A DNA stretch of 64,000 nt. Source: an uncultured Fretibacterium sp. (GTDB lineage: Bacteria; Synergistota; Synergistia; Synergistales; Aminobacteriaceae). A program made the position numbers and the translations under genes. Location: NCBI GenBank assembly GCA_946183145.1, contig CAMGZM010000004.1:62001-126000 (forward strand). Reading direction: 5' to 3'. Positions 1,626 to 3,864 of the stretch are shown here, in pieces. How positions within the stretch are numbered: position 1 is the stretch's first letter; every line of letters starts with the position of its first letter. The notes below the pieces were generated by a model. It did no database searches, was not told the origin of the DNA, and was given only the letters and a program-made list of their open reading frames with translations.

Positions 1626-2237
1626 TTACTTTGAGTACAACTCGACCGCAAGTATTTCTGTTACATCAATGGGCAGTTCCTCGCGCAAGGGTTCACGGAT
1701 TAATTTTGCGCTGAACTGTGCTTTGTCCTTCTCAAGGTAGGGTACGCTGAACGACACAAGCCCGTTGAAGTTTGACTCAACAAGAGGATTCGTGCGTGTT
1801 TTCTCCTTGAGGCTGATTACGTCATTGACCTTCACGCCGTATGACGGAATGTCTACTTTTGAGCCGTTCACGAGAATATGCCCGTGAGTAACGAGCTGCC
1901 TTGCCTGACGGATTGAGCGTGCGAATCCAGTGCGGTAAACGAGATTGTCGAGCCTGCACTCTAACGCCTTGAGCAACGCAACACCAGTCATCTCATCGCT
2001 CTTGCTGGCCTCGTTGAAATATCTTGCGAACTGACGCTCTAATATTCCGTAATATGCTTTGATCTTCTGTTTCTCCAAAAGCTGAAGGCCGTACTGTGAT
2101 ACCTTCTGCCCTGTTCTTGCCGCGCTTGCTGAAGCGTTTTTCTTTGTGTCAGCCCTCTTTAACGCTTTGGGATGGCCGCAGACATTAACGCCAAGATGAC
2201 GGCATAATTTGAATCTGGGTTCTCTTCTTGTTGCCAT
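1626..2237 (-). CDS. rpsD: 30S ribosomal protein S4
   Basis: Primary 16S rRNA-binding protein of the small subunit. Residues about 90-155 carry the S4 RNA-binding domain ([23 protein letters not shown], then [10 protein letters not shown]). The frame opens at a GTG at 2252, but the ATG at 2237 gives the usual [16 protein letters not shown] start; a GGGAG lies 14 bases before it, a rather long spacing. The N-terminus has two Cys (C12, C20 of this start) rather than the four-Cys zinc knuckle of C+ S4 proteins. The gene stands alone rather than in the rpsM-rpsK-rpoA cluster, so it could be the only S4 or a second copy; the window cannot tell. A promoter-like motif at 2288-2316 would give a leader of about 44 bases. 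Confidence 0.93.
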
Positions 2238-2285
2238 TGAAAGTTTCTGCACTCCCTGTAATTATAATATTGGATATTAGCTGAC

Positions 2286-2364
2286 TGAGTTTAACACCCG
2301 CAACGTGAAAAGTAAAGTTAATCACATCAATGTACATTCGTAATTATTCTCGTTAATTCACAGG
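2286..2364. repeat. 79-bp direct repeat, copy 1
   Basis: This block matches 2699-2777 over its full 79 bases without gaps (roughly three quarters identical by eye). The best conserved parts are AGTTTAACAC, GTGAAAAGTAAAGTT and TAATTATTCTC. The copies are 413 bp apart and in the same orientation. They bracket the TnpB-like remnant. Confidence 0.8.
2288..2316 (-). promoter_or_regulatory. Promoter-like motif upstream of rpsD
   Basis: On the minus strand this reads TTTACT, 17 bases, TAAACT, with a T/A-rich stretch upstream that could act as an UP element. The predicted start near 2281 leaves about 44 bases before the rpsD ATG. Both hexamers and the 17-base spacing are kept in the second repeat copy while the spacer bases vary, which supports function. 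Confidence 0.5.
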
Positions 2365-2640
2365 TTCTGAGCCTCCCTATAGTGGGTTCTTAAGAAGTTT
2401 GATTTTAAGTCTCCACCTGCGTAAACAGGCATTCTTATTCTTAAAGGCGTGGCCAGTCCGCCCCTACCGTATAGCCCTGTTAAGGACACAACGCTACTTT
2501 GTTTACTTCATGCACCTTTTCTCATAGAACCCGTCATAGTTCACATTTGTGCTACGCTGCGGCGAGAGGTAAGTGTTTCCCCGTATTGCTTTTGATAGTG
2601 CTGCTACATTTTTGGTAACGCGGAATAACTAACTGCAAAA
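2358..2640 (-). pseudogene. Decayed TnpB / IS605-type right-end remnant or structured RNA
   Basis: No intact gene is present. On the minus strand two overlapping open fragments lie in different frames (2503-2628 and 2358-2507). The second has Gly/Arg-rich coding character (LYGRGGLATPL, MPVYAGGD) and ends HYREAQNL followed by a stop. The last 40 bases form the CCC-ACTATA-GGG hairpin and AGG-CTCAG pattern resembling right ends of IS200/IS605 tnpB genes. The same strand can form several further hairpins (CCTG/CAGG, TTTAAG/CTTAAA, GGCG/CGCC). The favoured reading is a degenerate tnpB 3' end with its guide-RNA-like right end. An independent structured RNA is the alternative. Confidence 0.4.
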
Positions 2641-2698
2641 TTATTATACTACACAGCTAAAGCTAGGCATATTACACCACTTTTTGATAATTGTTAAT

Positions 2699-2777
2699 TG
2701 AGTTTAACACTCGCACAGTGAAAAGTAAAGTTGCTCCAATCATGACACATTCATAATTATTCTCATGAAATTACAAG
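2699..2777. repeat. 79-bp direct repeat, copy 2
   Basis: Second copy of the block at 2286-2364. On the minus strand it precedes the TnpB-like remnant just as copy 1 precedes rpsD. On the plus strand it lies directly before the gene at 2818, with TATAAT at 2779-2784. Confidence 0.8.
2701..2729 (-). promoter_or_regulatory. Promoter-like motif in repeat copy 2
   Basis: TTTACT, 17 bases, TAAACT on the minus strand, identical in both hexamers and spacing to the copy upstream of rpsD. It would start transcription near 2694 into the TnpB-like or structured region. Confidence 0.4.
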
Positions 2778-2817
2778 TTATAATAGCTTCATATTTTCAT
2801 GACGGAGGAAACTTGCC

Positions 2818-3864
2818 TTGTCTCTCAGAAAAGGATTAATCATCTTCATACTGTTAGCATTCGGCGTGAGCGCGTTCATAATTTTCCGCAGCGTTGATGA
2901 AGAAACTGTGCGTTCGCTCCTTAATGCCGACAAGATGAAACTGCTTCTTGCTCTCTTTGTTGTTTTTGCGGCGTGGGTCTGTGATGCCGGAAGATTCTGC
3001 GCGTTATCGTCAGCGGCTCATGAACACGTCCCCTTCTCGCTGGGAATCGTTTTGACGTGGCTCAATTATTTCGGGAGTGCTGTAACTCCTATGCAGTCAG
3101 GCGGAGGGCCTTTTCAGGTTTATGCGCTCTACAAGAAGGGTATACCTGTCGGAAAAGGAATCGCCATCACGTTAATGCGTACTATGCTGACGGTGTTGAT
3201 ACTCACAATTTCAGTGCCTTCCGCGTTGATGCTTGACCCGGAAATTTTAGAGGGCAGCCCGTTCCTTAAAGGACTCGTGTTTTACGTTTTTGTTGTGATT
3301 CTTGCGACTTGGGCATTCATTGCGTTCACGATTATACGCCCTGACCTCGTAAAGAAACTGAGTCATATTATCGTGTTATGGTTCAAGCGATTCGGATTCA
3401 TGCGTTCGACTCGGCGTGCGATAAAGATTGTTCGGTGGCTCGACAAAGAGATCGACAACTACATCATGAACTTCAAGCTCGCATTCAACACGGGAAAAAT
3501 CTGGGTGTTAATCGCTGTGATACTTTCTGTGCTTCATCTTGCGGCGTTGTTTACGGTTCTTCCTGTCTTGATGTCAGCAGTGGGACTCCCGTTCAAATAC
3601 TCTCAGACTCTCGCGGTTCAGGCTGTCTTCATGTTCATACTGTACTTCATTCCGACACCGGGCGCGAGCGGAGTCGCTGAGGGGGGCGGCGCATTGCTGT
3701 ATTCTATCCTGATGCCTGCAAACATGGCCGGAATCATGTCGGTGATTTGTCGCTTCTTCACGGACTATATATCTATCTTCATGGGCGTTGTAGTTGTGAT
3801 TCGTATGCTTGGCTGGGGAGTAACTGAGAATTTGCACAAAGGAGCGTCGGTTGAGGATGCGTGA
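2818..3864 (+). CDS. YbhN/UPF0104-family flippase-like membrane protein
   Basis: A 348-residue integral membrane protein with about eight hydrophobic helices, of the lysylphosphatidylglycerol synthase transmembrane-region / TIGR00374 family. Family-typical features are the motif around residue 95 (FGSAVTPMQSGGGPFQVYAL) and the late PTPGASGVAEGG segment (near residue 280), both conserved glycine-rich loops. Members move or modify lipid-linked groups, but substrates are mostly unknown. It starts with TTG at 2818, fixed by GGAGGAAA nine bases upstream. It overlaps the next gene by a few bases, so the two are probably cotranslated. Confidence 0.85.
   Translation: MSLRKGLIIFILLAFGVSAFIIFRSVDEETVRSLLNADKMKLLLALFVVFAAWVCDAGRFCALSSAAHEHVPFSLGIVLTWLNYFGSAVTPMQSGGGPFQVYALYKKGIPVGKGIAITLMRTMLTVLILTISVPSALMLDPEILEGSPFLKGLVFYVFVVILATWAFIAFTIIRPDLVKKLSHIIVLWFKRFGFMRSTRRAIKIVRWLDKEIDNYIMNFKLAFNTGKIWVLIAVILSVLHLAALFTVLPVLMSAVGLPFKYSQTLAVQAVFMFILYFIPTPGASGVAEGGGALLYSILMPANMAGIMSVICRFFTDYISIFMGVVVVIRMLGWGVTENLHKGASVEDA

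Follow-up and report, generated by a model that had tools for sequence, protein, structure and literature searches.

How can an element of a kind that makes no target duplication come to be flanked by a long direct repeat, and by one that carries the promoter of a ribosomal protein gene? This question is raised by the DNA upstream of rpsD in the window, by which we mean the whole 64,000-nucleotide stretch of an uncultured Fretibacterium genome that was analysed here. The window's own genome is called G000, other G-numbers are genomes of the genus, and L-numbers are scaffold or TnpB loci. A first-pass annotation of this DNA had reported two gapless 79-bp repeat copies that lie 413 apart. The repeat is real and proves to be longer, with 97 nt per copy, 23 differences (76% identity), no gaps, and a start-to-start distance of 413. 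When the two 150-nt flanks of the element are aligned locally, they score 51, and the top score of 300 shuffles is 25.5. The promoter sequence TTTACT-17-TAAACT, also reported as exact in both copies, is indeed present in each, and none of the 23 differences falls on its 14 core positions where 3.3 would be expected, a chance of ~0.02 for positions that were picked post hoc. Of the 39 genus loci that have enough sequence ahead of rpsD, 25 show a strict form of this pattern there, TTTAC[AT]-15 to 18-T[AG]AACT. A consensus promoter scan gave 5 sites vs 1.5 expected and missed the rpsD promoter because TTTACT and TAAACT lie under the scan thresholds; no terminator was found in a scan of the region. 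Elsewhere in the window, a SAM riboswitch (RF00162, 80.2 bits) lies at 1502-1601 on the minus strand, upstream of an S-adenosylmethionine synthetase-like ORF at 210-1409.

Table. Features of the rpsD upstream region, in window coordinates.
Feature	Position	Strand	Basis and remarks
rpsD (30S ribosomal protein S4)	1626..2252	minus	ORF; orthologues in 39 of 41 genomes, the window's own included
Repeat copy 1	2270-2366	minus	rpsD promoter: -35 at 2311-2316, -10 at 2288-2293
Putative 16-nt guide AACCTGTGAATTAACG	2351..2366	minus	first bases of repeat copy 1, beside CTCAG; by analogy with ISDra2, as partly described in PMC8612924
Non-autonomous IS200/IS605-type (PATE-like) element	2367..2684	minus	left end after TTATC, right end ...GGGAGGCTCAG; ends as in L026; multi-copy
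Predicted TnpB right-end (omega/re) RNA scaffold	2367..2499	minus	covariation, 36 sequences; covariance model R1
Shortened terminal hairpin CCC/GGG of right end	2375..2386	minus	alignments A2 and A3
TnpB C-terminus remnant, ~40 codons	2385..2504	minus	overlaps RNA scaffold; matches L026 TnpB residues 391-430
Middle segment	2505..2618	minus	in most TnpB-less copies, but not in L026 or in L010 and L011, which are short
Element left end	2619..2684	minus	subterminal palindrome AGC-TTTA-GCT, TATAAT-like box; copy alignment
Insertion target TTATC / putative TnpB TAM	2685..2689	minus	at left end of element
Repeat copy 2	2683-2779	minus	second promoter: -35 at 2724-2729, -10 at 2701-2706; reads into element; ends at TTATC
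TATAAT box of divergent gene	2779..2784	plus	on outer edge of repeat copy 2; conserved in G022 and G057
Divergent gene, LPG_synthase_TM membrane protein	2818..3864	plus	Pfam PF03706, E 1.6e-31

The DNA bracketed by the repeat is a complete element of 318 bp with CTCAG at its right end. It has no transposase gene and contains only a broken TnpB C-terminus, a minus-strand ORF (2358-2489) that is 80% identical to residues 391-430 of the TnpB at L026. This locus has an open TnpB of 433 aa (PF01385 and PF07282), a left end that follows TTATC, a right end that reads GGGAGGCTCAG, and a scaffold ~87% identical to that of the window element. The match to its TnpB and the shared ends support the TnpB/IS605-like right end proposed in the first-pass annotation; of the two frame-broken coding fragments described there, one is the TnpB C-terminus and the other was not identified as coding. 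The element is thus made up of a left end, a middle segment that L026 does not have, and the TnpB right end. Its left end is 18 nt shorter than in other copies in the alignment. Subterminal palindromes are present at both ends, the left one read by eye and the right hairpin, shortened in the window copy, by covariation. Judged by its sequence, this is an element of the PATE type, a known kind of non-autonomous IS200/IS605 element for which the palindrome-associated transposable elements of Haloquadratum walsbyi provide the name (partly described in PMC3119063). It would be mobile only with help from elsewhere. A single truncated match to Y1 TnpA was found in G000, not adjoining the L026-type TnpB, and no TnpA adjoins an L026-type TnpB in the 43 genus genomes. 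A sequence search for solved-structure relatives of the L026 TnpB returned none at E 0.001.

We found TTATC immediately 5′ of the left end in the window copy, in L026, and in all 6 of the other full-length G000 copies with readable ends; the exceptions are L010, which is preceded by TTACC, and L006, which has no such left end. None of seven other elements in the window's genome has repeats abutting its ends, so such repeats are not how this element family inserts, and the first-pass view that the repeat is not a simple insertion scar holds. L002 has a weak flank match away from its ends, above 95% of shuffles but below the best shuffle. The long flanking repeat is confined to the window locus and the same locus in G057. 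Target-site duplication was rejected as a candidate, given the seven other elements and the 95-bp span of the window's repeat. A search for empty sites found nothing in 6 genomes with the left flank of L007 and one weak hit, in 1 of 6 genomes, with that of L004; both the target word and the absence of duplication are thus read from the comparison of flanks and not from empty alleles.

Covariation indicates that a conserved structured RNA overlaps the right end as well as the end of tnpB. In alignment A2, which holds 36 of 38 distinct loci (L005 and L088 were left out, their first hairpin being replaced), RNAalifold gave 26 pairs, 14 of them with pair-preserving changes on both sides, and 97.6% of 935 cells were paired. 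The covariation score of 0.342 was reached by 0 of 500 shuffles (mean 0.184) and slid versions gave at most 0.107, in a test that takes its structure from the same alignment and is favoured by it. Among the 26 TnpB-less copies alone (alignment A3, 26 of 38 rows picked by eye, without the 10 TnpB-bearing rows and L005 and L088), 15 of 27 pairs changed on both sides, although some of these double changes may have arisen earlier, in ancestors with TnpB. A compensated pair is present in the window copy itself, C-G for U-A at columns 7-35, and this copy scores 142.3 bits with covariance model R1, of which its own row was part. Folding energy revealed no excess structure (z = +0.70 for 2358-2700 and z = -0.37 for 2367-2499). 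The rich secondary structure noticed earlier is therefore not seen by folding energy alone and is seen by covariation across 36 relatives, which also supports the suggestion that a guide-RNA-like region was kept. Rfam, proposed earlier as a place to look, has no family that matches the region. Two variants of the scaffold were also observed. In L005 and L088, which are from two species, the first hairpin is replaced by AAGGCTCACGATA...GTGAGAAGATAGCGT and the rest is retained. In L003, L007, L008, and L011 (two copies), an extra 18-nt insert of the TCCCTTACGGGGCGTTGC type lies between the first and second helix; in the alignment, this insert occurs only in the window's genome.

Copies without TnpB are the rule for this scaffold. 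A search of G000 with the region found 18 matching places, and 13 of the 14 strong right-end RNA copies in this genome, of which the window element is one, have no TnpB. Covariance-model matches at E 0.001 occur in 21 of the 43 genus genomes. Restricting the census to the hits of at least 80 bits, 50 of all those listed, we found that 11 loci adjoin a TnpB of at least 100 aa, 14 a C-terminal remnant only, and 25 neither. This gives 39 TnpB-less vs 11 TnpB-bearing loci in the 43 genomes, where the absence of TnpB cannot be judged at two or more TnpB-less loci (among them G022:C255 and G020:C32) that start within 110 bp of a contig end. G057 has 5 scaffold loci, and TnpB of the L026 type is present there only as 44-aa remnants. 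L006, L013, and L014 have the scaffold in common and other ends; L013 (G000 C1:81735-81852) and L014 (C1:131073-131193) have neither usual end, are preceded by a TATAAT- or TACAAT-like box, and are possible solo RNA genes. Among named records, the scaffold core occurs in Synergistaceae and Synergistales MAGs (several ruminant) and one uncultured Fretibacterium, and the same scaffold stands beside TnpB genes in Lachnospiraceae, other Clostridia, and three viral contigs. The latter, L188, L189, and L190, are on contigs filed as viral (467, 52, and 147 kb), and their TnpB relatives are 58-59% identical to the L026 TnpB over residues 1-415. One uncultured Blautia MAG (CAMNNO) has the same scaffold at L147, L151, L168, and L183 with at most ~30 aa of TnpB; a short palindrome of the CCCACGTACC...GTGGG type precedes these loci, complete in three of the four, and they appear to form an independent family of TnpB-less elements in this Lachnospiraceae genome. 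A tree of 16 copies is star-like and does not join the window and G057 copies. The end branch of the window element ranks third in length, as would fit an insertion that is old and in decay, and we conclude that the element is old and decaying with both ends and the right-end RNA scaffold retained.

How the repeat relates to this insertion can be read from its edges and from relatives. The inner edges of the repeat are exactly the ends of the element, the left copy running to TTATC| and the right copy from CTCAG| with 0 spare bases, so the duplication belongs to the history of the insertion. Comparison of the rpsD upstream region, proposed in the first-pass annotation, proved informative. G022 has the same neighbour genes, one promoter block, and no element. 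G057, the closer relative of the window's genome by four-fold sites, has the insertion with an identical right junction and a left copy of 28 bp, exactly what would remain of a 95-bp copy cut from one of its AATTAT words to the other; with this loss the second promoter is gone. Taken alone, the short repeat of G057 (27-28 nt) is marginal, with a score of 17.0 where 95% of shuffles reach 16.5 or less and the best 21.5. The upstream edge of the block reads TTAT|AACC in G000 and G022, and TTAT precedes 1.2% of positions in upstream regions (133/11,531). At the downstream edge, the aligned position in the rpsD 5′ UTR reads TTATC in G051 and G047. Both block edges thus appear to be target words or close to one.

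We think that the duplication is probably a recombination scar left by a crossover between two insertions of an old TnpB-less PATE-like element. If the promoter block is called R and the element E, one chromosome would have received an E after TTAT at the upstream edge of R, and its sister a second E after TTATC at the downstream edge, the two sites being 95 bp apart. A single crossover inside E would then yield R-E-R, with the left part taken from the second allele and the right part from the first, a label order that matches the observed one (as labels only). Either parental insertion would disturb one of the divergent genes and the recombinant would leave both upstream regions intact, so it could persist. 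In the G057 lineage, the redundant promoter would later have been removed by the loss of 67 bp between AATTAT repeats. Against the crossover, no allele with E at one edge only was found, the upstream edge today is TTATA, not TTATC, the short repeat of G057 is marginal on its own, and no TnpA adjoins this TnpB type in the 43 genomes. The empty site in G022 could be a later loss, because R-E-R can collapse to R. Replacement or gene conversion is possible in G057, given that its element is of another indel subtype and is not joined to the window copy in the tree. Read as a crossover scar, the locus offers one route by which long direct repeats can come to flank an element that does not duplicate its target.

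The same edges could have arisen in other orders. R may have been tandem-duplicated by slippage between TTAT words before the element inserted at the junction TTAT, which would account for TTAT(C) at both edges and, as few such words occur in the block, would not require a very unlikely choice of site. We nevertheless consider this rather unlikely: the junction would read TTAT|AACC, yet readable left ends follow TTATC, and no R-R without the element exists among the rpsD loci examined. Still less probable is a one-step duplication by aberrant transposition, in which TnpA would join the left end to TTATC on one strand but would use a second target-like site, on the sister strand, for the right end; TnpB might assist by cutting the donor joint, so that repair from the sister is forced. 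The exact element ends at both junctions are what this would produce, and cutting of donor joints by TnpB, with ensuing repair from the sister, has been proposed (in the part of PMC8612924 available to us). However, all 7 of the other copies are negative and that of G057 is the same locus, and no cognate TnpA is known in these genomes. The crossover remains our preferred origin, and we regard the locus as an ordinary element with an unusual scar.

An earlier suggestion was that a guide-RNA-like region had been kept and given the rpsD promoter. In its full form, this would be a domesticated RNA gene, the right-end RNA being expressed from the rpsD promoter and either acting with TnpB in trans or regulating rpsD. 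In its favour, covariation in the scaffold is still seen when TnpB-less copies are taken alone, copy 2 has an unchanged core promoter, and the middle and scaffold are 85% identical between G000 and G057 (215/252) vs 65% for the neighbour gene at four-fold sites (103/159; p 2e-6). Compared with the local intergenic flanks (42/53, hand-counted on the alignment), however, this conservation does not reach significance (p 0.30), identity at rpsD four-fold sites is 88%, and the end branch of the window element is among the longest, as noted above. Moreover, the second promoter is lost in G057, which has no cognate TnpB beyond the short remnants, and an 18-nt pattern for the putative guide, searched in the whole genome within 3 mismatches, matches its own locus only. 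With repeat edges that are exactly the element ends, a gain of the rpsD promoter as a function is not supported, and domestication seems very improbable.

For the related IscB, omega RNAs that act in trans have been discussed. The right-end RNAs of TnpB-less copies might form a trans-guided selfish family, although we consider this improbable. The sole intact L026-type TnpB would be loaded by RNAs from ~13 TnpB-less copies and would cut each empty donor site, so protecting them all; at rpsD, out-of-register repair of a break made by TnpB would give promoter-element-promoter. With 39 TnpB-less scaffolds vs 11, the genus lends itself to the question of whether orphan guide RNAs are served by TnpB in trans.

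Among the accessible portions of the literature searched (including PMC12558985), a search that left most subscription journals outside, we found no report of TnpB-less covarying right-end RNA elements that outnumber TnpB copies, or of a long promoter duplication on both sides of an IS605-type element. Within the same genome, L026 has the same TTATC left end and the same right end as the window element but has an open TnpB and no middle. ISDra2 is similar in that its right-end RNA overlaps the end of tnpB, its guide comes from flanking DNA, and it inserts without target duplication, as far as the available part of PMC8612924 describes it. In contrast, ISDra2 carries TnpA and TnpB and has the pentanucleotide target TTGAT (same source), whereas the window element has neither protein and has the target TTATC. 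The PATEs of Haloquadratum walsbyi are likewise transposase-free and multi-copy with near-terminal palindromes shared with IS605-type elements, and some arise by core deletion (PMC3119063, in part). They differ in being archaeal, and the available portion of that report describes no guide-RNA scaffold or promoter-block duplication. A PATE-like element of Halanaerobium hydrogeniformans (available part of PMC7290912) differs in being single copy and lacking a middle segment, and that part contains no analysis of its RNA, but its 271 nt, made up of a left end, the last 58 nt of tnpB, and the whole 160-nt right end, have nearly the same build as the window element.
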